Shown: positions 48,964 to 64,000 of the stretch, in pieces
Numbering within the stretch: the stretch's first letter is position 1
How the letters are laid out: each line of letters begins with the position of its first letter
From: an uncultured Anaerolineae bacterium
GTDB lineage: Bacteria > Chloroflexota > Anaerolineae > Anaerolineales > Villigracilaceae
Assembly: GCA_903822545.1 (NCBI GenBank)
Contig: CAIJPN010000086.1
Location: 1 to 64,000 of the forward strand
Direction of reading: 5' to 3'
DNA: 64,000 nt
Position numbers and translations under genes: made by a program
Notes under the pieces: model-generated
The model's database searches: none
Seen by the model: only the letters and a program-made list of their open reading frames with translations
What the model was told of the DNA's origin: nothing

Positions 48964-49051
48964 CATCGTAATTATATTGTCCCCTTCGGATAACCAATTC
49001 GAACTCGTTTTATTTCGAGGGGTACCACTCCACTCTTTTGAGGCCAAAACT

Positions 49052-49876
49052 ATGGCTCTTCGGGGTAACCTTCGCGATTTTACAGTAACACAGTTATTAA
49101 ATCTAATTAATCTGGCCCACAAAACCGGTACATTGGTGATTGAAGGGCCCAGTGAGGTCGCGCGTGTTGCTTTTCGCGATGGCAAACTTGCCTATGCCCA
49201 GGTAGGGCAGGAAGACAACCGCCTGGCAACCGTGTTGCATCGCTCCAACCGGCTAACGGCTGGGCAATATAATGCTATCATCCAGCGCGCTGCCCACGTA
49301 ACCGATAAAGAATTAGGCTTGTTGCTGATTAATGCTGGGTATCTATCCCAGGGTGATATTTTGACGGCGCTCCAGGCTTACTTCACTGACGTTGTTCGAC
49401 GTTTATTTACCTGGGTCGAGGGGTTTTTCAGGTTTGAAAATGAAATGATGCCCCCGGAAGACAGGATTAACGTCCGCCTGGACCTGGAAAATCTCATCAT
49501 CGAAGGCGCCCGCCAGCTACGAGAATGGGAACAACTTCAGGATGAAATCCCCAGCCTGGATATGGCGTTGAAATTCACCGAGCGCCCTGACACAAACATC
49601 CAAAAAATGAATTTGAGCGTGGAAGAATGGCGGGTGGTATCTTTCATCAACCCCAAAAACACCATTCGCCAGATTGGCGCCGCCGCCAAAATGGGCGACC
49701 TGGAAATCCGCCGCATCGTATATGGCCTGTTACAAGCTGGCTTAGTGGAAGTTGTGCGCCCTGAAGGCGCGCCGCCCACCGCACAAGAAAGAACCCGCGC
49801 AGCTGCGCCTGTTCAAGACAAAGAAGAACAGAAGTCGCTGGTTAACCGTTTGATCACGCGTATCCGCTCGATCTAA
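49052..49876 (+). CDS. DUF4388-domain protein
   Basis: 274 residues. The N-terminal DUF4388/PATAN-like domain starts MALRGNLRDFTVTQLLNLINLAHKTGTL and contains RVAFRDGKLAYAQVG, typical of this family of signalling partners in gliding bacteria, cyanobacteria and Chloroflexota. A second part (~185-235) with NLSVEEWRVVSFINPKNTIRQIGAA looks like a winged-helix-type repeat. A charged tail ends the protein. The ATG at 49052, preceded by GAGG, is preferred over a TTG at 48977 because DUF4388 begins with MAL-G-L. DUF4388 often accompanies Ras-like GTPases such as the next gene. Confidence 0.85.
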   Translation: MALRGNLRDFTVTQLLNLINLAHKTGTLVIEGPSEVARVAFRDGKLAYAQVGQEDNRLATVLHRSNRLTAGQYNAIIQRAAHVTDKELGLLLINAGYLSQGDILTALQAYFTDVVRRLFTWVEGFFRFENEMMPPEDRINVRLDLENLIIEGARQLREWEQLQDEIPSLDMALKFTERPDTNIQKMNLSVEEWRVVSFINPKNTIRQIGAAAKMGDLEIRRIVYGLLQAGLVEVVRPEGAPPTAQERTRAAAPVQDKEEQKSLVNRLITRIRSI

Positions 49877-49906: not shown

Positions 49907-50449
49907 ATGCAAACAGTCAAAATGGTAGTGACTGGCCCCTTCAGTTCTGGCAAAACGGAGTTTATCCGTTCCGTCAGTGAAATCGATGTTGTAGCGACTG
50001 AGCGCAAGATTTCATCGGACGCCGAAAAAACAGTTAAACAGGCGACCACAGTGGCGATGGATTTTGGCCGTATTACTGTGGATGAAGACCTGGTTCTCTA
50101 TCTTTTTGGCACTCCCGGTCAGAAGCGCTTCGATTTCATGTGGGAAATCCTTTCAGAGGGTATGCTGGGTTTCATCGTCATGGTGGATAGCACCCGCCCT
50201 GAAACTTTTCGCGAAGCCCGCTCCATCCTTGAAACCTTCCGCGCCTATGCGCCTACCCCTTACGTCGTTTCAGCCAACAAACAGGATGCACCCGATGCCT
50301 GGGATGTGGAAGACATGCGTCATGCCCTGCGCCTGGATGCAAAAGTAAAACTACTGCCTTGTGTCGCGACAGACAAAACCACAGTGAAGAATGTACTGTT
50401 GGAATTGCTGTACAGCATTTTGGCCGAGATGGATGGCGGAGCAAAATAG
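49907..50449 (+). CDS. Ras-superfamily small GTPase (MglA/Rup-type)
   Basis: 180 residues. Cytosolic GTP-binding switch. G1/P-loop GPFSSGKTEF at residues 10-19, G2 Thr in KQATTVAMDFG, G3 LFGTPGQKRF (DxxG replaced by TPGQ, as in MglA-like proteins), G4 SANKQDAPDAW, G5 PCVATDK. Such GTPases set cell polarity or relay signals together with Roadblock- or DUF4388-type partners. No Roadblock/LC7 gene is adjacent. It sits directly after the DUF4388 gene in the same operon. Confidence 0.9.
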   Translation: MQTVKMVVTGPFSSGKTEFIRSVSEIDVVATERKISSDAEKTVKQATTVAMDFGRITVDEDLVLYLFGTPGQKRFDFMWEILSEGMLGFIVMVDSTRPETFREARSILETFRAYAPTPYVVSANKQDAPDAWDVEDMRHALRLDAKVKLLPCVATDKTTVKNVLLELLYSILAEMDGGAK

Positions 50450-50464
50450 CTTCGTGAAAAAGCC

Positions 50465-51265
50465 GTGTCCTCAATTACTACCGATCAAGGTATCGTTCAC
50501 TACGAAGTTTATGGGCGCGGTCGTCCGGTTATTTTGCTGCATGGGTGGCTAGGTTCTTGGGGATTGTGGCAAGAAACCATGGCCTATTTAGGCCGTTATT
50601 ATCGCACCTATGCGCTGGATTTTTGGGGGTTCGGCGAATCTGGCAAGAAGCGTGAAACTTACGCTGTGCAAGATTTTGTCAGCCTGGTAAACCAATTTAT
50701 GGATATTTTGGGGATCGTCAACGCCCCGCTGGTTGGCCACAGCATGGGTGGGACGGTTAGCCTTTCTGTAGCGATCCAGTACCCTCACCGGGTTAGCAAA
50801 GTCGTTGTGGTTGGCTCCCCCATTGTCGGGACATCGCTGGCGCTTCCGCTCAAACTGGCAGGATACCACTTTATCGCTTCCATTCTTTTCAATATGATGT
50901 GGGCTTTTCGCGGGGGGTTACGGATAGCATCTCCGTTTATTTGCGCTGATCCGCGTTTCCCGAAAATGATGGATAACGACCTTACCAAGACGACAGTTGA
51001 ATCTTTCCTGTTGAGTATTTCATCACTGCACCGCACCGACTTGCGCCCGATGCTCTCGCAGCTTAAAATCCCTGTAATGGGCATGTATGGAGATCGTGAT
51101 AATATCGTTCATCCGCGCCAATGGCAGCCGCTTGCGCAAGGCGTACCTCACGCACGAATTGTTCGTTGGCCGCGTGCCCAGCATTTTGTGATGATAGATG
51201 AACCGCAAGATTTTATGGAGAAGCTGAAAAATTTCCTGGATCAACAAGAGAATCCTACCGGATGA
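50465..51265 (+). CDS. Alpha/beta hydrolase, intact catalytic triad
   Basis: 266 residues, start GTG at 50465. Alpha/beta hydrolase fold with oxyanion HGWLGSW, nucleophile elbow GHSMGG (Ser93), acid in MYGDRDNIV and His in RAQHFVMID. The N-terminus SITTDQGIVHYEVYGRGRP aligns residue for residue with the pseudo-hydrolase at 63038. This type includes haloalkane/epoxide-hydrolase and RsbQ-like members. It likely cleaves or senses a small hydrophobic compound. It ends with an ATGA overlap to the V4R gene. Confidence 0.9.
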   Translation: MSSITTDQGIVHYEVYGRGRPVILLHGWLGSWGLWQETMAYLGRYYRTYALDFWGFGESGKKRETYAVQDFVSLVNQFMDILGIVNAPLVGHSMGGTVSLSVAIQYPHRVSKVVVVGSPIVGTSLALPLKLAGYHFIASILFNMMWAFRGGLRIASPFICADPRFPKMMDNDLTKTTVESFLLSISSLHRTDLRPMLSQLKIPVMGMYGDRDNIVHPRQWQPLAQGVPHARIVRWPRAQHFVMIDEPQDFMEKLKNFLDQQENPTG

Positions 51266-51897
51266 CTTCATCAGTTTCTTCTCCCGCCTATTATTATTCC
51301 AATCGAATGGGGCGGATCATCCTTTTGGCAATGGAAGAGATTGTCGGTTTGAATGGAGCAAATGCAACACTCAACCTGGCTTCTCTTTCGTCTTTTATTA
51401 ATAACTATCCCCCTCAGAATCACAAACTCGAAATTCCTTTTCGTTCGATTTCGAACATCCTGGTAGCCTTTGAAAGCCTTTATGGGCCTCGGGGTGGCCG
51501 GGGCGTAGCCCTGCGTGTTGGGCGGGCCTGCTTCCAACACGGGCTGCGTGAATTTGGCCCCATGTTTGGGCTGACTGACGTGGCTTTTCGGATGCTTCCA
51601 TTGCAAACCAGGCTCAACGTAGGGGCAGCCAGCTTCGCTGAGATTTTTAATAAGCATTCTGATCAGCGTGTTCGCCTTGAAGATGATGGGCGCATGTTGC
51701 ACTGGCATATTGAACGCTGTCCGCTTTGCTGGGAGCGCAAAACTGATGCACCCTGCTGCCACATGGCTGTCGGTTTATTACAGGAAGCTCTTTACTGGGT
51801 TAGTGGCGGTAAAATTTTTAACTTAGAAGAAACCCGCTGCATTGCCTGTGGAGACGCCACCTGTACCATTGTCATAGATAAAATCCCAATTTCCTGA
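51262..51897 (+). CDS. V4R-domain protein
   Basis: 211 residues. Cys-rich sensory domain of the 4-vinyl-reductase (V4R) family, which folds like TRAPP subunit Bet3 and binds small hydrophobic ligands. The characteristic end CIACGDATCTIVIDKIP is present, with CPLCWERKTDAPCCHMAVGLLQEAL ahead of it. The N-terminal half (MGRIILLAMEEIVGLNGANATL; FESLYGPRGGRGVALRVGRACF) fits the helical part. The ATG overlaps the hydrolase stop. As a ligand-binding partner next to a Ras-like GTPase, it is one of the most interesting genes here. Confidence 0.82.
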   Translation: MTSSVSSPAYYYSNRMGRIILLAMEEIVGLNGANATLNLASLSSFINNYPPQNHKLEIPFRSISNILVAFESLYGPRGGRGVALRVGRACFQHGLREFGPMFGLTDVAFRMLPLQTRLNVGAASFAEIFNKHSDQRVRLEDDGRMLHWHIERCPLCWERKTDAPCCHMAVGLLQEALYWVSGGKIFNLEETRCIACGDATCTIVIDKIPIS

Positions 51898-51899
51898 CT

Positions 51900-53177
51900 A
51901 TGCTAAAAGTAATTCTCCAATCCAAACGTGTTATCCCCCCTTTTAACGAAGCAGCGCGCGATCTGCGCGTTCAAAATGTGCCGCTATGGTTATGGCAGCG
52001 CAATGTTCTTGCTCCCTATGTTACTCGTGAAACCGAAGTGCCAGAAAAATCACCCCTCCCACAGCTACACGAGCCCATGCTGGTATATCGCGACAATCTG
52101 TTTTTCGATGAATTCTACATCGACGAATTCATCAAACAGGCCAAACGGCGCGGGCGCCCGTGTCGTGCCGCCTTCTCTTTAGATGACCCAGCTTTTCGAG
52201 AACATGCCCTGCCTTTGTCTGTTTCCTACACCCCCGCCGGATTGAACTACCTGGCCGACCTGTGGTACTACCCCAATGGCCCCGAAGCTGATGTCGATCC
52301 CTTGGTGATCAGCCTCCAGTCGCGTGAAGTCGGTTTCTACCATGTGCCATCTTACATGGCTGGTGAGCGCGGCGACCTGGTCTACCAGGTGCCTCAGCGC
52401 GCCATGATGGCGATCGACTGCTGGTCACACATGTTCATTGTGGATGTGGTTTTTGGCCTGTTCAAACGCGCCAACCGCTACGAAGTCCGCTCAAATACAG
52501 ACCCTATCTTCAAACTGCAAATCACCGCCCGGGCTTTATACGAAGGCCGCCAGGTGCTGGAATGTTCCGAGATGGTCAAAGTTGGCAAAGGCTGCACCAT
52601 CGACCCGCATGCCATCATTCATGGGCCCACCACCATCGGCGATAACGTAACCATCGGCGCGGGAACTGTCATCGAAAACTGCATTATCGGCAACAACGTT
52701 AATATTTCACAGGATGTTCAGTTGATGCTTTCTGTAGTGGGTGATGGTACCTTCCTACCCTTCCGGGCAGCCCTGTTTGAAACCACCATTATGGATAACT
52801 CGATGGTCGCCCAAAATACCTGCCTGCAAATGTGCGTGGTTGGGCGAAACACATTCATCGGAGCTGGTTCCACCTTCACCGACTATAACCTGCTGCCTGC
52901 CCCAATAAAAACCCTGGATGGCAACGAAAATCTAAAACCGACAAACCTGCCCGTATTGGGCGGGGCAGTGGGACACAACTGCCGTATAGGGGCTGGGATG
53001 ATTGTATACCCGGCTCGCACCATCGAGTCGGATGTTGTTATCGCCGCATCGAAAGAACGCCGGGTGATCGACAAAGATGTCAAATATGAAGATAGCGACC
53101 ACCACAAAATGAAAAATTCCCATCTCCATAAGCGCCTGTACCCCCGCCGGGGCGAGTCAGACCTGGAATCCTGGTGA
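51900..53177 (+). CDS. Left-handed beta-helix (hexapeptide) protein, transferase-like
   Basis: 425 residues. The first ~220 do not match a family I know; they end in YEVRSNTDPIFKLQ. Residues ~225-385 form a left-handed beta helix with hexapeptide repeats, for example CTIDPHAIIHGPTTIGDNVTIGAGTVIENCIIGNNVNI and IGAGMIVYPARTI. This resembles GlmU/LpxA-type acyl- and nucleotidyl-transferases. It starts 2 nt after the V4R stop. A role in modifying a cell-surface molecule is a guess from the fold only. Confidence 0.7.
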   Translation: MLKVILQSKRVIPPFNEAARDLRVQNVPLWLWQRNVLAPYVTRETEVPEKSPLPQLHEPMLVYRDNLFFDEFYIDEFIKQAKRRGRPCRAAFSLDDPAFREHALPLSVSYTPAGLNYLADLWYYPNGPEADVDPLVISLQSREVGFYHVPSYMAGERGDLVYQVPQRAMMAIDCWSHMFIVDVVFGLFKRANRYEVRSNTDPIFKLQITARALYEGRQVLECSEMVKVGKGCTIDPHAIIHGPTTIGDNVTIGAGTVIENCIIGNNVNISQDVQLMLSVVGDGTFLPFRAALFETTIMDNSMVAQNTCLQMCVVGRNTFIGAGSTFTDYNLLPAPIKTLDGNENLKPTNLPVLGGAVGHNCRIGAGMIVYPARTIESDVVIAASKERRVIDKDVKYEDSDHHKMKNSHLHKRLYPRRGESDLESW

Positions 53178-53180
53178 TTA

Positions 53181-54272
53181 ATGGATAGTTTTGCATTTAT
53201 TATTCATCCAATTGACCCCAAACGTGATGTTAGCAGAAAATACCCCTTCTTAGGAAAAATCCTTACCGAAAACCAGATCAATTTCTTTTCAACATTCTTC
53301 CCACCCGTTTATATTTCTGAAATTGAAGGAATTACATCTGCTGCTACTGGCAAGCAGATAAAAGGCTGGTTCATTGCCTGCCCCTTCACACCAAAGCGGA
53401 TGCTGGAGTTGCCTGAAAAGACGGTATACAAGAAAATTATCCAGACCGGGCATATGTCTGAACGGTTGGGAGCAAACATCCTCGGGTTAGGTGCATTCAC
53501 TTCAGTGGTAGGTGATGCAGGGATTACGATTGCCAGGGCGTTGGATGTGCCTGTGACTACAGGAGATTCTTACACGGTCTCGCTGGCTGTCGAATCCATC
53601 CAAAAAGCTGCTGAGATTATGGAAATCCCGTTATCTACTGCCACAGCTGCGGTGGTTGGAGCGACCGGTGCAATTGGGAAGATTTGCGCAGAATTACTCT
53701 CTGAAGCAGTTGGTGAGTTATACTTAATAGGACGACGTTTGGATGCCCTGGAAGAACTGCGAGAACGTTTGAGTCCAACGGCGCGCGCTGTTTTGCATAT
53801 CAGCAACAAAATGGATGTACTTTCACGGGCAAATTTAATTTTGACAGTAACAAGTGCTATCCATGATATTATTCAACCCGAGCATCTCCAACCGGGTAGT
53901 GTTGTTTGTGACGTGGCTCGACCTCGTGACGTTTCTGCAATGGTGGCAGCCGCGCGAAATGATATATTAGTAATTGATGGCGGCATGGTGGATGTGCCAG
54001 GGCCAGTCAATTTTCACTTTAACTTTGGTTTTCCGCCAGGAAAAGCTTATGCCTGTATGGCAGAAACTATGGCTCTGGCGCTCGAAGGGCGATTTGAAGA
54101 TTACACGTTGGGCAAGGAAATTACCCGCGCTCGCGTTGATGAAATCGCAAATATTTCAACAAAACACGGTTTTCGCTTAAGTGGCTTCCGCTCGTTTGAG
54201 CGAGAAGTGACATCTGAACAAATCGAAATTGTGCGAACGAATGCTAAGAAAATGCTTGCACGCAAATCATGA
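53181..54272 (+). CDS. Acyl-ACP reductase (AAR)-like oxidoreductase
   Basis: 363 residues. Homologous to cyanobacterial acyl-ACP reductase, which makes fatty aldehydes. Matching blocks are EIEGITSAATGKQIKGWF, LGLGAFTSVV, VTTGDSYTVSLAVESI and the NAD(P) motif VVGATGAIGK (residues ~158-167). The active Cys is in KAYACMAETMALALEG (Cys292), where cyanobacterial AAR has FACFAEAMLLEFEG. KHGFRLSGF matches the AAR C-terminus. No aldehyde decarbonylase gene is in the window, so the aldehyde may be a signal or intermediate. The final substrate is inferred, not shown. Confidence 0.8.
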   Translation: MDSFAFIIHPIDPKRDVSRKYPFLGKILTENQINFFSTFFPPVYISEIEGITSAATGKQIKGWFIACPFTPKRMLELPEKTVYKKIIQTGHMSERLGANILGLGAFTSVVGDAGITIARALDVPVTTGDSYTVSLAVESIQKAAEIMEIPLSTATAAVVGATGAIGKICAELLSEAVGELYLIGRRLDALEELRERLSPTARAVLHISNKMDVLSRANLILTVTSAIHDIIQPEHLQPGSVVCDVARPRDVSAMVAAARNDILVIDGGMVDVPGPVNFHFNFGFPPGKAYACMAETMALALEGRFEDYTLGKEITRARVDEIANISTKHGFRLSGFRSFEREVTSEQIEIVRTNAKKMLARKS

Positions 54273-54284
54273 TGGAGGCTCGTT

Positions 54285-55190
54285 ATGGGAAAAGCCCGCC
54301 TTTTGATTACCGAAGATGATGTCGATATCTCGACCATGCTCAAAATCTACTTCACTGGCCTCGGCTATGAAGTCGATACTGCCCTGCGTGGCCTGGATGC
54401 GCTGGAGAAGACACGCCAGGTGCTTCCGCACCTGATTGTGCTCGACATCATGCTGCCCGATATCGATGGGTATGAAGTCTGCCGCAACCTGCGTACCAAC
54501 ATGCGCACCAGCCACATTCCAGTCATCTTCCTGACACAAAAAGATGAACGTAGTGACCGGTTGCAGGGCCTGGAGCTTGGGGCGGACGATTACATCACCA
54601 AGCCATTCGACATCGAAGAGCTAAAGCTGCGTGTTCAGGGAGCCATTCGCCGCTCTGAACGCGAGAGCTTGACCGATCCACGTTCTGGCCTGCCTGCAGG
54701 ACGTTTGATCGAAGAACAATTGCGGAAAATCATCCGCGAAACGGGTTGGGCCTTCCTCGATTTGCGTATCAACCACTTTGAGCCATTCAAAGATGTGTAT
54801 GGGTTTGTAGCAGGGGATGATGTTTTGCGGTTTACCGGGATGCTCATTGGCGAAGTGCTCGACCAGATGGGCAGCACCAGCGATTTTGTTGGCCATGCAG
54901 GTGGCGATAATTTTGTCATCATCACCAAAGATGGGGCATCCACCCAAATCCGCAACCGCCTGAAAGACCGATTCAAAGAAGAAGTACAAACTCACTACAA
55001 CTTTATGGATCGACAGCAGGGTTATATCCTTGCGCCGACCAATGATGGGCAATCTGAGCGGGCAGCGCTTATGAGCCTGGCGATTGGGGTTGTTTCACCA
55101 TCGCAAAATTCATTTGCCGATATCCGTGAAATCACTGAACTGGCAGCCGAAGCGCGTCGCGCTGATGCCGCCGGGAGCAACAAAGGATAG
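54285..55190 (+). CDS. Response regulator with degenerate GGDEF domain
   Basis: 301 residues. The N-terminal receiver (~1-122) has acidic pocket EDD at 10-12, phospho-acceptor Asp54 in LIVLDIMLPDIDGYE, Thr84 and Lys107. A GGDEF-like domain follows (~130-295). Its signature is HAGGDNFVIIT, GGDNF in place of GG(D/E)EF, so diguanylate cyclase activity is doubtful. It may bind GTP or partner proteins instead. GGAGG precedes the ATG. It is located upstream of the giant histidine kinase, a likely phosphodonor. Confidence 0.88.
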   Translation: MGKARLLITEDDVDISTMLKIYFTGLGYEVDTALRGLDALEKTRQVLPHLIVLDIMLPDIDGYEVCRNLRTNMRTSHIPVIFLTQKDERSDRLQGLELGADDYITKPFDIEELKLRVQGAIRRSERESLTDPRSGLPAGRLIEEQLRKIIRETGWAFLDLRINHFEPFKDVYGFVAGDDVLRFTGMLIGEVLDQMGSTSDFVGHAGGDNFVIITKDGASTQIRNRLKDRFKEEVQTHYNFMDRQQGYILAPTNDGQSERAALMSLAIGVVSPSQNSFADIREITELAAEARRADAAGSNKG

Positions 55191-55198
55191 CATTTCTC

Positions 55199-58100
55199 AT
55201 GCTTGAAGGACAGTCTTTAGGCCTCGGTATTGGATTGCTGATCGCCGGACTCCTTTTTGTTCTGGCTGTCTGGTTCTTGTTACGCTTTGTTCCGCGCATC
55301 AGGCCAGATATCCGGGAAGTGACTACCCAGCTGGATGATATAAAAATCCAGCCGCATGGAGATGCCTTGTTGGTGATACGAACCGGGGGGCAGGTGGAGC
55401 ATGTTAACAAAGCCGCCCGGGAGTGGTTTGAATTGCTTGATGGGGAATTGCCCAACCTGGAACGCCTGGCAAGACGTATTCGCCCAGGCGAGAGTTTCCT
55501 CGAAATTTGCGCGGCTGAAGGTCAGGCGCGTTTTTCTATTAATGGCAGGTTGGCCGATGCACGCTCTTTTCGGGTGCCTGGCCCGACCCCTGTGGTGATG
55601 GTATCAATCTCCTGGGTGGATGCTGGTCTTGGTTTTGCAGAAGCGGGGGAAGAGCGCCTCTCTGTCAATGTTTTGAAACTGGTTTCAGATTTTTCCCGCA
55701 TTGTTTCAAGCGAACTAAGCTTGCCTGCCACTATCCAGGCTATTTTTGTAAATGTCGAAAATCTTATCCCCTCTGATTTTTTTGAAATCAAACTTTGGGA
55801 TGTACCATCTCACAGCCTGGTTACTTACCGGTTGGTTGGGCCGGTGGGAACATCCCGCCAATTACAGCAAGAAAAAGATACCCAATTCGGCGAATATTCT
55901 GCCGCGTTAGTGGCGCAGCGCCGGGAATTGATTATCGCAGATACGCGCTCGGCTTCACCGGTTCGTTTTGACCCGATTGGCACCAAAATCCCGCCGATGG
56001 GTTCCTATATCGGGTTACCTCTGCTGGTTGGGGAAGAGCTGGTTGGTACTATTGAAGTGGGCGTGACGCCTTCAAATGGGTTTTCGCTCGAAGATGCCCA
56101 CATCCTGCGCATGATCACAGGCCAGGTTGCGGTTGCCCTGCGCAATGCAAAGATGTATGAGGATCAACAACGCTGGACAACACAGTTGTTTGGCCTGACC
56201 AATCTTTCGCAATCGGTCAGTTCTTTGCGCGATGTTCGAGATCTTTTTGTGCGATTGGTGGAAGGGCTTTCTCCGTTATTCAACGTCAACATTTTAGGGT
56301 TCCTGCTGTACGATGAACATCGCCGCGTGCTGGAAGGTAAGGTTCCGTTTTTTGGGTTATCCAACCAGTTTGTTCAAATTTATAAAACATCCATTCGCCC
56401 CAACAGCCTGGCTGAAAAACGCATCTTGGGACAAGATATTATTGCATCGGTTGATGCATCCAACGATGAAGTGTGGAGTGACCTCGGTTTGCAAGACCTG
56501 GCCCAAGCGGCCAGCATCCGCGATACAGCCCTCGTCCCCCTCATTTCTGCAGGACGATTTTTAGGTTATTTGCAATTATCCAACCACCGTCAGGGAAACA
56601 CCCCGATTTCTCCAGAAGAGCTACGCTTGTTGAATGTGGTTGTCAACCAGGTTTCGGCTATTATCGAAAATGCGCTGCTGGTTCAGCAGGCACGCCAACG
56701 CAACCAGCGCACCGAGGCCATGCGCCGCATTTCCAGCCTGGTCAGTTCTCCGGCAACGCTGGACGAGATATTGCGCTATTCTGTTCAGGAGATTGCGCAA
56801 TTGCTCCAGGCAGATGTGGCTGCCATATTCCTGGTGGATGAACAAGAAGGTATTCTGCGCGGGCATATCCCTTCGGTCTATGGTGTCGCCAGCGATATGA
56901 TCGAGCCGCTTTCACGGCTATACATTAAATCATCCTCGGTTCATATAACGGTAGCGGGCAGCCAGCGCGCCTTTATCTCTGGGAATATCTCCAAGGGCCG
57001 TCGAATTTTGGGGGTTTACCGTCCGCTTGTGCGGCGAATGGCAATTGAATCAGCTATTGTCGTGCCGCTGATTGTGCGAGGCCAGGGCATTGGGGAATTA
57101 ATGCTTGGCTCTCACCTGGTTGACCTGTTCACCAATTATGATTTGCAGGTGGCCTCAACAGTTGCCAGCCAGCTTGCTGTGGCAATTGAAGGAGTGCGTT
57201 TTACCGGGCAGACGGATGATTTGATGCGTCGCAGGGCCAATCTGACCACTTTTGTCAGCCGGATTGCCCGCGAATTTAATACAACAGCAGATGTTTCTGA
57301 ACTTTTGCGCTTGATCTACGATGAAGCCCTCAAAATTTCGATGGCTGACTGCGGCGTAGCGATCATCTATAAAACCGACTCTGAAGAAAAGGGTTTTGAG
57401 CGCGAAATTTATGCTTCACTTGGACATAATACGGTCTCGCCACTGGTTAATGTTCATAAGAAAATGCTGCTGGATGGAGATTATGTTTTGGTGAAAGATG
57501 TTGATGAACCGCAGGTTCATCCTGGGGTTAGCGCAGCCCTGATATTTCCTCTCGCATATCACGAAGAAACAGTTGGTGTGATTGAATTGCACTCGTCAAA
57601 CCCTGACCGGTTTGATGAAATCGTCATCGAAGCGATGAAAACTCTTTCCATCCAGGCTGCTATCGCGTTGAGCAATATCTTCCGCCAGCGTGAGCAGCAG
57701 AAGCGTTTGGACACATTCCGCAAACGGATGGATACCCTGGGGCGTTTGTTCGAGATTTCGGGCAGTTTCCATGGGGATGAATCGGTGGAAGCCGCGCTTC
57801 ATCTCGTTGCAGATGGTTTGCGACAGCTGACCCCGTTTAATGTGGTGCTTATCAGTATTTATGATGATACCGATGCGCATTTGCAGCGGATTGCAGCGGT
57901 GGGCATTGCCCAAGATCAATTGGCGGCTGTCCTGGCTCATCGCTATCCATGGAGCAGTATTACCAGTTTTCTCCGACCTGAATTCCTGGTTGGGAAATCT
58001 TACTTTGTGCCTTTTGAACACTCCCCGGTTGCTCCTGCCGATATTCAGTTTGTAACCGTCCCGCTTGACGCCCCCAGCGATGGACCGGATGGCTGGAATG

Positions 58101-61100
58101 TGGAAGATTTGCTCCTGGTTCCACTTTTTGGGGATGATGGCAGCCCGATTGGCATGATCAGCCTGGATGCGCCTCGTGATGGCAAGCGCCCGAGTGCATC
58201 TACCTTTGAAATTATCGATGCTTTCACAGACCAGGCCGTTTTGAAGATGGTTGTTGCCAAAACGCTGTCACAGTACAAGCAAAAACTCCAGGATCTGTCT
58301 ATAGAAGTTGCCCGCCAGAAAACACTGGTTGATTTTGGATACCAAAGCTTGCCCATGTTCCTCTACAAGGATATTGAGCAGACTGTGGCGATTAACAACC
58401 TGTATCAGCGTTCCCGCCACATCCGCTCTGGGTTGCAATTGACCGAAGCTGTCAGCCGCCAGGTTGATTCTGTTTCAGCCCTGACGATGCTGGGGCAGCA
58501 GATTTTGACCAGCTTTGATATGTCGGCTTCTATGATTGCGCGTGAGACCCCTGAAGGCCCGCGCATCACCAGCGTTTTTGGGAATCTGCCCAAAGGCGCC
58601 AACCCGGAAGCGATGTTTGGCCAGCGCAATCCGCTTCGTAATTGCCTGCAAACGGGCGAGACCTTGATTTCTGAGAATTTGGATGAAGACGAAACCTGGC
58701 ATGATACCCCCTTCCTGACGGCTCTACGCACCAAGTCGTTCATCTGCATCCCGATTGTGATCAATAACAAGCCCCTGGCCGCGGTGATGGCAATTGACAC
58801 TTCACCCTTGCCATCTGTCAGCATGGATGATCGCCAGGTTTACTTCCAGATCAGCCGCCAGATTTCCATCATCCTGCAAAATATCAACCTGCTGAGTGAA
58901 ACCCGCCAGCGTTTGCAAGAAGTTAATCTTTTGCTCGATTTCAGCCGCCGTTTGAGCGGTCTTAACCCGCAGGAAATTTTACAGGCGCTGCTTGACAGTT
59001 CTTTGAAGGTGGTTTCTGCTGCTCATGCCGGTGTGGTGATGCTTGCCAGTGATAGCGAAGTTGCCCTGATACCGCAGGTTGCGCAAAATTATGTGGATAA
59101 TGCCAGCATACTGGAAATTTCCTACGCTTTCGGGGAAGGTTTGCCTGGGCGAGCGTATATCGAAAAACAGCCGCGCCGGGTTGATGAAGTCAATTTTGCT
59201 TTCGACTATAACCTTGGTGCTGAGAACCTGCTCAAATATCGTAAAGCTGTCGGAGGGCGAGTACCCATCTCCAGCATGGTCGTGCCTATTCGAACCAGTG
59301 AGCGTGAAATTGGTGTGATGGTGTTGGATAATTTCAACACCCCTTCAGCTTTCCGGCCAGATGATGAAGCCATCTTGCTCTCATTGACCCAACAAGTGGC
59401 TCTTTCACTTGAAAACGTTCGTCTGATGCAGGCAACCGAAGAACGCGCCGGGCAGCTCCAGGCGCTAAACTCAGTTGCGGCGGCAATCAGCACCAGCTTG
59501 ATGCGCGATGAATTGGTGCAGTCCCTGTTAGATCGTTTAGGCCAGGTTATCCCATACGATACCGCCATCTTGTGGATGCGCAGCGAGAATCGTATGGTGG
59601 TGGCTGAAGCGCGCGGTTACAGCGACACAGAAGATCGCAAAGGCTTGATCGTAGACGTTTCTGATAGCCTCCTGCTTAACGAGATGTTGCGTTCCGGTCA
59701 GCCTATCAATGTTGGAGATGTTCATGCCGATTCTCGTTTCCCGGCGCTGATCGATGTCCAGTATTTCTCGTGGTTGGGTATCCCTTTGTTGACCAAAGGA
59801 CAGGTTACGGGTGTGATTGCACTGGAAAAACGGGAAAAAGCTTTTTACCAGCCCGAACAGATACAGCTTGCCAGCACATTTGCCAGCCAGGCATCTGTGG
59901 CCCTCGAAAACGCCAACCTTTTTGAAGAAAGCGTCCGCCGCGCTGCCGAACTGGACGAGCGTTCACAACGCCTGGCAATGCTCAACCAGTTCTCCTCCCA
60001 ACTCAACAGCGCCCTGACCGCAGACCAGATTTTGCGCCTGACTGCCACCCAGTTGATGACAGCCCTGCAGGCTGAGCGCACCATGATCATCTTGATCGAC
60101 AAACATTCCCGGGCCTTCTTGTTGGCTGTGTTGCCCGATGAATCTGATACGCCCCCCATTTATCGAACATTACCGCCATCCATGGTTTTGTCGCGCCTGG
60201 CAGAATCACTCAGCGTCTATACCACCGATCATGTACCTGGCAACAAGGAACTTGCTTCCCTGATCGAATACCTGCCCGATGTTGAGTCCCTGATGGTTTT
60301 GCCGATTGATACCAACCAGCTTGTTTACGCTATCGCTGTCGAAACCCATTCGCAACACCACTTCCTGCCTTCTGAGATCGAACTGGCTCGCACAATCGGC
60401 AACCAGGCTGCCATTGCCCTGGAAAGCGCCGATCTTTACCAATCTACACGCGCCACAGCCGATCGCATGTCTACTCTCAACATTGTGAGTGCTGAAATCA
60501 GTGCCACCCTGGATCCTGATGAAATCTACAAGGCCATCCACAGCGCCGTGAGTAAGTTAATGCCGCTGGATGCCTTTATCATTGCACTCCATGACCAGGT
60601 GCGGAACGATATCGATGGCGTTTATATCGTTGACATGGGCCAACGCATCGCCGGGGTACGCCTGGCTTACGGGGAAGGCCTTAGCGGACGTGTGATCGCC
60701 AATGGACAACCCGTCTTGACGCTCGATGCCGCCGAGTCTGACGCAGCCGGTGGAGTCAATATCGGTGAAGAAGCCACCCCACACTCCATCGTAGCTGTCC
60801 CGATGTTTTCTGGGCAGCGTGTAGTAGGCATGCTTTCTGCACAGACTTATCAATACAATGCTTATGATGAAAACGATCAGCAGCTTTTGGGAACGCTGGC
60901 AAATCAGGCTACTGTTGCCATCCAAAACGCACGTCTGTTTGCCGAAACCCAAAAATTTGCGGTCACGCTGGAACAAAGTGTGCAAGAACGCACCATCGAA
61001 CTGCAACGCGAAAAACATAACACAGAAACCTTGCTGCGCATCCTATCAGAAGTTTCGGCCAGCCTTGACCTTGACCGCGCCCTGAGCCGTACCCTGGCCC

Positions 61101-62653
61101 TGCTAAATGAAGCCATTGGCGGCGAGCAGGGAACCATTATGCTGGTTAGCTCGGAAGATAATATGCTCCACTACCGGGCCGGGTACGGCTATGCTACCGA
61201 CTCGTCCCAGGTGATGACGGCGCGGCCAATCAGCTCCTTCAAGCTGAAGATTGGCGAAGGCCTGGCAGGGTGGGTCGTTAAAAACCGCAAATCGGTTTTG
61301 GTGGAAGACCTTTACCAGGATCCACGCTGGGTGGTATCGCACAGCTCACAACAGCATCGCAGCGCCATCGTAGCCCCGCTGGTGGTTGGCGAAGATATCA
61401 TCGGCGCCATTATGGTGTTCCATCGCAAACTTGGCTATTTCACCCAGGCATCCCTCGATATGGTGCAGGCCATTGGCAGCCAGGTTGCCATTTCTATTAA
61501 CAACGCCCAGTTATATGGCCTGATCCGCGACCAGGCTGAGCGGCTGGGAAACATGCTGCGCAACCAGCAAATGGAAGCCAGCCGCCAGCAGGCTATCTTG
61601 GAAGCGGTAGCCGATGGTGTCTTGGTTACCGACCCTGCCAATAAGATTACTTTCGTTAATGCATCCATCGAACGTATCCTTGATCTTGGCCCATCCCGGC
61701 TGAATGGACAATCACTGGAAAACTTTGCCGGTCTGTTCGGTAAAACCACCCAGACCTGGACAAAAACCATTCGCAACTGGTCGCAAAACCCGGGCAGTCA
61801 GTATGCCGGAGAAACCTACGCCGAGCAGATCAGCCTCGATAACGGGCGTGTTGTCCTCGTACACCTGGCTCCCATCCTGTGGCATAATGAATTCTTGGGA
61901 ACGGTTTCAATTTTCCGTGATATAACCCATGAAGTTGAAGTTGACCGGCTCAAATCTGAATTTGTTGCTACCGTCAGTCATGAATTGCGCACGCCAATGA
62001 CAGCCATTCGTGGTTATGTCGATGTGATGCTGATGGGTGCCGCTGGGGCCTTGACCGACAACCAATCGCATTTCCTGGCCATTGTGAAAGAAAATACCGA
62101 ACGGCTGAATATCCTGGTGAATGACTTGTTGGATATTTCCCGCATCGAGGCAGGCCGAGTGACACTCTCCATCCAGCGCCTGGATCTTGAACAAGTGGCC
62201 GAAGAAGTGGTCGATTCAGTGCTCCAGCGTTCGCAAAAAGAAAATAAATCAATGAGTGTTGCGCTCGATGTGCAACCTGAACTCCCCCAGGTTTTGGCCG
62301 ATCCGGAACGTATCCGCCAAATAATTGGCAATTTAGTCGATAATGCGTACAATTACACTCCTGAAAAAGGGATGATTACGGTTCACCTTCACAAAGCTAA
62401 TGGTGACGTTCAGGTCGATGTTAAAGATAACGGCATTGGCATCGCTATCGAAGACCAGCCCCGTGTATTCGATAGATTTTATCGCGGCGAAGACCCGCTT
62501 GTCCTGGCTACGCCTGGAACCGGCTTGGGACTTCCCATTGTCCAGCAACTGGTGGAAATGCACCATGGGCGTATCTGGCTTTCCAGCTCAGGACTGCGCG
62601 GTGAGGGAAGTACCTTTTCCTTCACCATCCCCGCAGAAAGAATTGAGGAATAA
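55199..62653 (+). CDS. Giant membrane histidine kinase with about eleven GAF domains
   Basis: 2484 residues. One N-terminal helix (~10-30), then a PAS-like fold (~45-150), followed by ~11 tandem GAF domains at about 155-325, 326-500, 503-670, 673-835, 837-1030, 1079-1240, 1241-1415, 1420-1585, 1595-1755, 1761-1930 and 1947-2115. Each ends with a Q-V/A-A-x-A-L/I-x-N-A-type helix (for example QVAVALRNAKMYEDQ, QASVALENANLFEES). A PAS (~2131-2240), HisKA with SHELRTP (His2261) and HATPase_c with N box NLVDNAYNY, G1 DNGIGI and G2 GTGLGLPI complete it. GAF arrays bind small molecules or photopigments; no ligand residues are obvious. No receiver is fused; two separate receivers flank it. Confidence 0.93.
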   Translation: MLEGQSLGLGIGLLIAGLLFVLAVWFLLRFVPRIRPDIREVTTQLDDIKIQPHGDALLVIRTGGQVEHVNKAAREWFELLDGELPNLERLARRIRPGESFLEICAAEGQARFSINGRLADARSFRVPGPTPVVMVSISWVDAGLGFAEAGEERLSVNVLKLVSDFSRIVSSELSLPATIQAIFVNVENLIPSDFFEIKLWDVPSHSLVTYRLVGPVGTSRQLQQEKDTQFGEYSAALVAQRRELIIADTRSASPVRFDPIGTKIPPMGSYIGLPLLVGEELVGTIEVGVTPSNGFSLEDAHILRMITGQVAVALRNAKMYEDQQRWTTQLFGLTNLSQSVSSLRDVRDLFVRLVEGLSPLFNVNILGFLLYDEHRRVLEGKVPFFGLSNQFVQIYKTSIRPNSLAEKRILGQDIIASVDASNDEVWSDLGLQDLAQAASIRDTALVPLISAGRFLGYLQLSNHRQGNTPISPEELRLLNVVVNQVSAIIENALLVQQARQRNQRTEAMRRISSLVSSPATLDEILRYSVQEIAQLLQADVAAIFLVDEQEGILRGHIPSVYGVASDMIEPLSRLYIKSSSVHITVAGSQRAFISGNISKGRRILGVYRPLVRRMAIESAIVVPLIVRGQGIGELMLGSHLVDLFTNYDLQVASTVASQLAVAIEGVRFTGQTDDLMRRRANLTTFVSRIAREFNTTADVSELLRLIYDEALKISMADCGVAIIYKTDSEEKGFEREIYASLGHNTVSPLVNVHKKMLLDGDYVLVKDVDEPQVHPGVSAALIFPLAYHEETVGVIELHSSNPDRFDEIVIEAMKTLSIQAAIALSNIFRQREQQKRLDTFRKRMDTLGRLFEISGSFHGDESVEAALHLVADGLRQLTPFNVVLISIYDDTDAHLQRIAAVGIAQDQLAAVLAHRYPWSSITSFLRPEFLVGKSYFVPFEHSPVAPADIQFVTVPLDAPSDGPDGWNVEDLLLVPLFGDDGSPIGMISLDAPRDGKRPSASTFEIIDAFTDQAVLKMVVAKTLSQYKQKLQDLSIEVARQKTLVDFGYQSLPMFLYKDIEQTVAINNLYQRSRHIRSGLQLTEAVSRQVDSVSALTMLGQQILTSFDMSASMIARETPEGPRITSVFGNLPKGANPEAMFGQRNPLRNCLQTGETLISENLDEDETWHDTPFLTALRTKSFICIPIVINNKPLAAVMAIDTSPLPSVSMDDRQVYFQISRQISIILQNINLLSETRQRLQEVNLLLDFSRRLSGLNPQEILQALLDSSLKVVSAAHAGVVMLASDSEVALIPQVAQNYVDNASILEISYAFGEGLPGRAYIEKQPRRVDEVNFAFDYNLGAENLLKYRKAVGGRVPISSMVVPIRTSEREIGVMVLDNFNTPSAFRPDDEAILLSLTQQVALSLENVRLMQATEERAGQLQALNSVAAAISTSLMRDELVQSLLDRLGQVIPYDTAILWMRSENRMVVAEARGYSDTEDRKGLIVDVSDSLLLNEMLRSGQPINVGDVHADSRFPALIDVQYFSWLGIPLLTKGQVTGVIALEKREKAFYQPEQIQLASTFASQASVALENANLFEESVRRAAELDERSQRLAMLNQFSSQLNSALTADQILRLTATQLMTALQAERTMIILIDKHSRAFLLAVLPDESDTPPIYRTLPPSMVLSRLAESLSVYTTDHVPGNKELASLIEYLPDVESLMVLPIDTNQLVYAIAVETHSQHHFLPSEIELARTIGNQAAIALESADLYQSTRATADRMSTLNIVSAEISATLDPDEIYKAIHSAVSKLMPLDAFIIALHDQVRNDIDGVYIVDMGQRIAGVRLAYGEGLSGRVIANGQPVLTLDAAESDAAGGVNIGEEATPHSIVAVPMFSGQRVVGMLSAQTYQYNAYDENDQQLLGTLANQATVAIQNARLFAETQKFAVTLEQSVQERTIELQREKHNTETLLRILSEVSASLDLDRALSRTLALLNEAIGGEQGTIMLVSSEDNMLHYRAGYGYATDSSQVMTARPISSFKLKIGEGLAGWVVKNRKSVLVEDLYQDPRWVVSHSSQQHRSAIVAPLVVGEDIIGAIMVFHRKLGYFTQASLDMVQAIGSQVAISINNAQLYGLIRDQAERLGNMLRNQQMEASRQQAILEAVADGVLVTDPANKITFVNASIERILDLGPSRLNGQSLENFAGLFGKTTQTWTKTIRNWSQNPGSQYAGETYAEQISLDNGRVVLVHLAPILWHNEFLGTVSIFRDITHEVEVDRLKSEFVATVSHELRTPMTAIRGYVDVMLMGAAGALTDNQSHFLAIVKENTERLNILVNDLLDISRIEAGRVTLSIQRLDLEQVAEEVVDSVLQRSQKENKSMSVALDVQPELPQVLADPERIRQIIGNLVDNAYNYTPEKGMITVHLHKANGDVQVDVKDNGIGIAIEDQPRVFDRFYRGEDPLVLATPGTGLGLPIVQQLVEMHHGRIWLSSSGLRGEGSTFSFTIPAERIEE

Positions 62654-62656
62654 CGA

Positions 62657-63031
62657 ATGGCGAAAATTGTGATCGCAGAAGATGAACCTGATATCCGAGA
62701 ATTAATCGCTTTTACCCTGCGTTTCGCCGGTTACGAAGTTGTCGCTGGCGCAAATGGTGAAGAAGGCTACCAACTGGCCAAAATGGAACGCCCAGATCTG
62801 TGCATGTTTGATGTTCGTATGCCCAAAATGACAGGCTATGAAGCCTGCAAAAAGATCAAAGCCGACCCAGAGACGGCCCATATTCCGGTAGTTTTTCTTT
62901 CTGCCAAAGGCCAGGAATCTGAGATCGAACAAGGGATGCAGGCTGGTGCCGATGAATACCTACTTAAACCTTTTGCTCCCGACCAATTAACGGAGCGCCT
63001 GCGTGAAATCCTCGCAAAACACGGTAAATAA
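62657..63031 (+). CDS. Stand-alone response regulator receiver
   Basis: 124 residues, receiver only: acidic EDE at 8-10, phospho-Asp52 in CMFDVRMPKMTGYEAC, Ser82 and Lys104 in LLKPF. It begins 3 nt after the kinase stop, so it is the cognate single-domain partner (CheY/DivK-like, no output domain). Output must be by protein interaction, possibly with the DUF4388/GTPase pair. Confidence 0.93.
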   Translation: MAKIVIAEDEPDIRELIAFTLRFAGYEVVAGANGEEGYQLAKMERPDLCMFDVRMPKMTGYEACKKIKADPETAHIPVVFLSAKGQESEIEQGMQAGADEYLLKPFAPDQLTERLREILAKHGK

Positions 63032-63037
63032 GTTTCT

Positions 63038-63823
63038 ATGAGCGCGATTCTACTTAATGGCGGCATTGTTCATTACGAAGTGATCGGGCGCGGGCGCCCC
63101 ATCATCTTCCTGCACGGCTGGGTTGGCTCATGGCGCTACTGGATTCCCGCCATGCAGACCGCTTCCACCCAGTTCCGCGCGTATGCCGTGGATATGTGGG
63201 GGTTTGGCGAAACAGCCCACGACGCTTCACGCTACACCATCGAACAGCAAATTTCGCTCCTTGAGCATTTCTTACAAGAAATGGGTATCGCCAAGGTTGC
63301 CCTGGTTGGACATGGAATTGGCGCAATCGTTGGGTTATTCTTCACCCTGCGGTTCCCAACAACTGTGGATCGCATCATGGCGGTGGATGTGCCGCTGGAT
63401 GTCAGCGCCGTCAACCCCAGGCTGCGCAGTGCCTCCCCGGCAGAACTGGCCGACTGGCTACTCAGCCGCGACAGCGTTTCAGATGCCGCCCGCGCAGATG
63501 CTCCCAAATCTGACCCCCTGGCGTTGACCATGCCGCTCAACTCCCCCGAAATGTTCAACCTGCAATCACGCATGGGAACCATGAATACTCCCGCGTTGCT
63601 CGTCTACGGGCAAAATGATCCATTGGTGACCATCCCTGGCTACGAAGCCGCCTCGCTGCCGCTCAACTCGCATGTACTGGTGCTTGACCAATCTGGCCAC
63701 TTCCCGATGCTCGATGATGCCGCGCGCTTCAACCGCCTTTTGACAGACTTCTTCGCCCTGCAATCTGGTGAAAGCCCGCGAGACCTCCAGATGAAAGAAG
63801 AATGGCGCAGGCGTGTGCGCTAA
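63038..63823 (+). CDS. Alpha/beta hydrolase-fold protein, nucleophile lost
   Basis: 261 residues, paralogue of the gene at 50465 along the whole length (GIVHYEVIGRGRPIIFLHGWVGSW). At the nucleophile elbow the expected GxSxG reads GHGIG: residue 93 is Gly (codon GGA, 63314-63316), exactly where the paralogue has Ser93. Asp in YGQNDPLV and His in QSGHFPML are kept. Catalysis by the usual Ser mechanism is not possible; a ligand-sensing or chaperone role is more likely. It closes the operon; a terminator follows directly. Confidence 0.88.
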   Translation: MSAILLNGGIVHYEVIGRGRPIIFLHGWVGSWRYWIPAMQTASTQFRAYAVDMWGFGETAHDASRYTIEQQISLLEHFLQEMGIAKVALVGHGIGAIVGLFFTLRFPTTVDRIMAVDVPLDVSAVNPRLRSASPAELADWLLSRDSVSDAARADAPKSDPLALTMPLNSPEMFNLQSRMGTMNTPALLVYGQNDPLVTIPGYEAASLPLNSHVLVLDQSGHFPMLDDAARFNRLLTDFFALQSGESPRDLQMKEEWRRRVR

Positions 63824-63868: not shown

Positions 63869-64000
63869 ATGCTCCCCCTCTCCGATACATCCCTGCTCAT
63901 CCAGCTTGGCGACAAAATCGATCCGCAGATCAATCGCCGCGTTCATATGCTGGCGGCAGCCCTGGCGCTTGACCCACTGCCCGGGATCTGCGAAACCGTA
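63869..64000 (+). CDS. pxpB: 5-oxoprolinase subunit PxpB / KipI-like, truncated by window end
   Basis: Only 44 codons are visible. SDTSLLIQLGDKIDPQINRRVHMLAAAL and PGICETV match the N-terminus of PxpB (KipI/allophanate hydrolase subunit 1), whose typical start is LLVxFGDxIDPxIN. PxpABC degrades 5-oxoproline to glutamate. It lies beyond the operon terminator and so is a new unit. The symbol is provisional since the rest and its partner genes are outside the window. Confidence 0.72.
   Translation, partial: MLPLSDTSLLIQLGDKIDPQINRRVHMLAAALALDPLPGICETV

Follow-up and report, generated by a model that had tools for sequence, protein, structure and literature searches.

The closest described systems are proteins of the alpha/beta-hydrolase fold that take part in signalling or bind ligand without cleaving it. 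RsbQ, known from the RsbQ-PAS module of Bacillus subtilis and others, is encoded beside a phosphatase, histidine kinase or diguanylate cyclase, with which it is thought to act as a sensor, signalling through contact with a PAS domain (PMC3183031). Signalling by RsbQ requires the catalytic triad, and a second model put forward by the same authors holds that pocket occupancy, not catalysis, is the signal (PMC3183031). D14 and KAI2, the strigolactone and karrikin receptors of plants, keep Ser-His-Asp and have F-box proteins as partners; for D14, hydrolysis has been reported to be unnecessary for signalling (PMC6331613). The S102G variant of the N-acyl homoserine lactonase AidH has lost its activity, and its ligand-bound crystal complex has been solved (PMC3532132). 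Whether hydrolase-fold receptors must cleave their ligand to signal is debated for both RsbQ and the plant receptors. The neuroligins, Ser-less cholinesterase-like proteins, have lost the nucleophile in nature and act by binding; they are animal, extracellular proteins from another branch of the fold than the protein described here. No bacterial Ser-less alpha/beta-hydrolase sensor was found in the open-licence literature.

The window analyzed here is a stretch of 64,000 nucleotides from an uncultured Anaerolineae bacterium (contig CAIJPN010000086.1). Close to its 3' end it encodes a hydrolase-fold protein with an altered nucleophile elbow, referred to below as the pseudo-hydrolase.

63038–63823, + strand: tail-bearing alpha/beta hydrolase with Gly93 replacing the nucleophile (the pseudo-hydrolase); open reading frame of 261 amino acids, PF00561 and PF12697 above cut-off
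63314–63316, + strand: GGA codon for Gly93 in the nucleophile elbow GHGIG (codon read; alignment to CumD S103)
63617–63619, + strand: Asp194, acid of the former triad, kept in 159/164 members of the tail-bearing clade (clade and CumD alignments)
63698–63700, + strand: His221, histidine of the former triad, kept in 162/164 members (clade and CumD alignments)
63785–63820, + strand: C-terminal tail LQMKEEWRRRVR, residues 250–261, clade-specific, nearly invariant and of low predicted order (alignments, AlphaFold2)

The core profile PF00561 matches with 70.8 bits against a cut-off of 25.8, PF12697 is also well above its cut-off, and AlphaFold2 gives a confident model (mean pLDDT 92.1) whose best structural matches are ordinary hydrolases (Z 26–29; VIA, up to 28.9). 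AidH S102G with bound hexanoyl homoserine lactone (4g8b) ties for best match within the error of Z (Z 28.9, rmsd 2.3, 241 residues aligned, about 20% identity). RsbQ, D14 and KAI2 do not occur among the best 60 PDB matches listed, which thus give no sign of close kinship to any of the three. A profile alignment with CumD pairs Gly93 with the nucleophile position S103, which is Ala in 1iun and Ser in 2d0d, and pairs Asp194 and His221 with the catalytic Asp and His. The Ser-to-Gly exchange at residue 93 and the retention of the triad Asp and His, both proposed in an earlier sequence-only reading, are thereby confirmed. The Ser, Asp or Cys that serves as elbow nucleophile in catalytic members is absent, and on sequence grounds the protein is an alpha/beta hydrolase by fold, not by catalytic residues.

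The pseudo-hydrolase gene is the last of nine same-strand genes (49907–63823) whose eight junctions are all overlaps or gaps of at most 15 bp, which is consistent with an operon. The other eight genes, and the one that precedes them, are as follows.

48977–49876, + strand: protein 5' of the GTPase, DUF4388-like by eye, conserved start of the cluster (sequence by eye, gene order)
49907–50449, + strand: small Ras-like GTPase (family profile search)
50465–51265, + strand: intact paralogue with GHSMG at its own residue 93, no tail, GTG start (open reading frame and alignments; Ser in 55/55 relatives)
51262–51897, + strand: V4R-like domain protein (just under the Pfam cut-off)
51900–53177, + strand: left-handed beta-helix (hexapeptide) protein, acyltransferase-like (profile searches)
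53181–54272, + strand: acyl-ACP/thioester-reductase-like protein, similar to AAR and the PigE N terminus (NF053554, TIGR04058)
54285–55190, + strand: receiver with a degenerate GGDEF domain (GGDNF) (profile search, homologue alignment)
55199–62653, + strand: giant sensor histidine kinase of 2484 amino acids with about 10 GAF domains, one PAS, HisKA and HATPase_c (domain search)
62657–63031, + strand: single-domain, CheY-like receiver directly 5' of the pseudo-hydrolase (PF00072)

The earlier reading had placed an intact paralogue in the same operon as the altered copy, and the gene order agrees with this. The reductase-like protein scores 210 bits against part of the NF053554 model and 122 bits against TIGR04058, each short of the equivalog cut-off; together with the hexapeptide protein it may produce or alter a ligand derived from lipid. 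Only one canonical GGDEF occurs among 94 aligned homologues of the receiver-GGDEF protein, which is likely a second pseudo-enzyme of the cluster. The PAS domain of the kinase is confined to residues 2129–2243. Downstream of the pseudo-hydrolase, at about 63870–64000, a further gene seems by eye to start like KipI/PxpB (5-oxoprolinase subunit).

Homologues were sought in 61 relatives, in 249 genomes from the class and in 301 from the phylum Chloroflexota, the sampled assemblies being mostly metagenome-derived. Of the 55 near relatives, 51 have Gly and four have Asp at residue 93, and none has Ser; His221 is kept in 54/54 and Asp194 in 53/54. The nucleophile is the sole change in an otherwise ordinary hydrolase, as might be expected of a sequencing error or of a decaying pseudogene, but the chance of either is negligible. 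Error or a single-genome mutation is rejected by the Gly93 of the near relatives, which come from independent genomes, and decay by a dN/dS of 0.02–0.15 for close pairs, a range that indicates purifying selection whatever residue 93 is.

Phylum-wide sampling yielded 164 distinct rows of the tail-bearing clade, which is set apart by a branch with 100/100 support. Here residue 93 is Gly in 110, Ser in 19, Ala in 18, Thr in 10 and Asp in seven, and an invariant Gly93 in all orthologues is therefore rejected. On a tree built with column 93 left out, the Ser/non-Ser state changes at least nine times, seven of the changes being forced by well-supported branches alone; this count gives the number of changes and not their direction. 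The ancestral residue was likely Ser, given an outgroup that is all Ser and one Ser member, weakly supported, at the base of the clade. From Ser (mostly TCN) to Gly (GGN) the codon path takes two base changes, for which Ala (GCN) offers a one-step bridge. One member from the same family as the window genome has Ser (TCT) within a Gly clade and may represent either a regain or a retained state.

These counts bear on the sequence-only reading. It had asked whether orthologues conserve Gly93, which holds for the near relatives and only in part across the phylum. It had taken Ser in orthologues as a sign of error or of mutation in one genome; Ser does occur in several lineages, including the family of the window genome, yet Gly is no one-genome event. 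Finally, the description as a pseudo-enzyme is supported on sequence grounds, the nucleophile being absent, but not as that of a single dead copy, since residue 93 is lax throughout a phylum-wide clade and, judging from the tree, has changed several times. The persistence of the non-Ser state together with a clade-specific tail across the phylum is, on the alignments, far more than chance would give. As separate observations, four Asp93 members also lack Asp194 (Asn or Ser instead), as if the triad were decaying further, and 12 members carry an insert in the cap region that makes longer proteins (about 320–430 amino acids).

The motif K-E-E-W-x-R-R-x-R in the tail marks the clade: Trp256 and Arg258 are found in 164/164 members and Arg259 in 162/164. 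The paralogue lacks such a tail, and only the kinase-linked copy has one. The model is poorly ordered at the last residues (pLDDT 36–46 for blocks 251–261), and a segment predicted to be disordered yet invariant resembles a docking motif. In 164 of 166 loci the tail-bearing gene comes directly after a receiver or the giant GAF kinase. Specifically, the nearest same-strand upstream signalling gene is a receiver in 150 loci, the kinase in 14 and the receiver-GGDEF gene in two, with a gap of at most 60 bp in 138 loci and at most 300 bp in 164. The tail is unlikely to dock to the receiver alone, because it is kept at the 14 loci where no receiver gene was found between kinase and pseudo-hydrolase.

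The gene order also bears on a regulatory partnership, in which the pseudo-hydrolase would be an inactive subunit controlling the intact paralogue. The two copies are paralogues that have the stretch HGW-x-GSW-x-x-W in common, which weakly suggests that they recognise related molecules, and they co-occur in nearly all genomes holding either, so a functional tie between them is possible. The intact paralogue keeps its Ser throughout (35/35 rows in a first set; GHSMG at 20/20 loci in a second). However, where the copies separate, it is the kinase and not the paralogue to which the pseudo-hydrolase stays linked. In one lineage the cluster is split into DUF4388-GTPase-hydrolase(Ser)-hexapeptide-reductase and receiver-GGDEF-kinase-receiver-pseudo-hydrolase. 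In three distant families the intact paralogue mostly stands by itself at another place, and the tail-bearing copy remains behind the kinase; several of these loci have no receiver gene that we could find between the two. Both arrangements indicate that the tail clade goes with the kinase, in agreement with the kinase coupling proposed earlier. With the tail limited to the kinase-linked copy as well, we regard a role as controller of the paralogue as improbable. Two side observations concern the same gene orders. Loci L145–L152, set against L188 and L195, show the cluster naturally divided, with GTPase, hydrolase and reductase in one module and kinase, receiver and pseudo-hydrolase in the other. 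At seven other loci a V4R-like gene lies directly 3' of the pseudo-hydrolase, and at several of these no V4R-like gene was found at its usual mid-cluster place.

A strong kinase linkage, an invariant tail and a freely exchanged nucleophile would also suit a pure adaptor or scaffold, whose fold does no more than present the surfaces and the tail that hold the kinase in a complex, with no ligand involved. Such a protein would not need His221 (162/164), Asp194 (159/164), or His92 and Trp28 (both 164/164), unless these are kept for structural reasons. The conservation of the four residues favors ligand binding, and we consider a pure scaffold rather unlikely. His221 and Asp194 may, at the same time, leave room for residual catalysis, and the 19 members that keep Ser could be active enzymes; if so, the clade may hold both active and inactive receptors.

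The near invariance of His221 and Asp194 and the kept oxyanion-side motif also raise the question of an enzyme that still works without a Ser nucleophile, for example by His/Asp base catalysis or with a water activated by His221. For some enzymes with the alpha/beta-hydrolase fold a mechanism lacking a covalent Ser step has been proposed, and dehalogenases and epoxide hydrolases use an Asp at this position as their nucleophile; these precedents speak for the idea. Against it, the five residues found at position 93 have no common chemistry, Asp194 is lost in the very Asp93 members mentioned above, and two tail-clade members lack the triad His. A Ser-free enzyme appears less probable even than a scaffold.

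We therefore give slightly better than even chances to a role as a non-catalytic signalling subunit, a kinase-coupled receptor or adaptor of the giant GAF kinase whose pocket binds a ligand and whose tail docks. Variation at residue 93 alongside a fixed fold and tail counts in its favor. Under this proposal, the pseudo-hydrolase would descend from an alpha/beta hydrolase and would have kept its fold and what is left of the active site (the HGW oxyanion side, His92, Asp194 and His221) as a binding site for a small molecule, which is most likely related to the substrates of the intact paralogue and of the reductase-like and acyltransferase-like proteins. Occupancy of the pocket would be passed to the kinase through direct contact, with the invariant, flexible tail as the likely docking element. 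As hydrolysis would not be needed, the catalytic Ser could repeatedly have given way to Gly, Ala, Thr or Asp. The sequences show the exchange, its spread, the tail, the purifying selection and the gene order; inactivity, a ligand in the old pocket, contact with the kinase and docking by the tail are inferred from them. More tentatively, and at somewhat below even chances, we propose that Chloroflexota hold a phylum-wide family of hydrolase-fold receptors, docked by their tails to giant GAF kinases, in which Ser was removed several times independently with the receptor kept, and whose ligand is probably made or cleared by the cluster itself. The results point to a widely conserved signalling cluster of the phylum with a possible self-made ligand, and no described Chloroflexota system of this kind was found in the open-licence literature.

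Compared with the known systems, the pseudo-hydrolase is like RsbQ in that a hydrolase gene adjoins the gene of a signalling protein. RsbQ was nevertheless rejected as a family label: its gene precedes that of a partner whose N-terminal PAS domain is of the RsbP type, whereas the pseudo-hydrolase gene follows those of a multi-GAF kinase and a receiver, and RsbQ keeps and needs the triad that the pseudo-hydrolase has lost. The C-terminal tail is a further difference. The triad requirement of RsbQ, as the nearest bacterial precedent, counts against a non-catalytic reading. With D14 and KAI2 the likeness lies in a hydrolase fold serving as receptor, and the difference in Gly93, which breaks the Ser-His-Asp triad; signalling by D14 without hydrolysis counts for a non-catalytic receptor (PMC6331613). 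So does AidH S102G, inactive and ligand-bound, which carries by engineering the same change at the same place and binds without cleaving (PMC3532132), although it is a laboratory mutant without a signalling role. Natural Ser, Gly, Ala, Thr and Asp versions occur in the same gene context, which makes the question of cleavage testable by comparing orthologues; a non-catalytic role, if true, would show from nature that hydrolase receptors can signal without hydrolysis. The ligand sensor after the example of RsbQ or D14-like proteins that the sequence-only reading had suggested is plausible, with D14 the better precedent and RsbQ an imperfect one; that reading as a whole is supported in part. The family would exemplify the occupancy model of the RsbQ authors. 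We do not claim membership of either RsbQ or D14/KAI2; the pseudo-hydrolase probably works like a hydrolase receptor.
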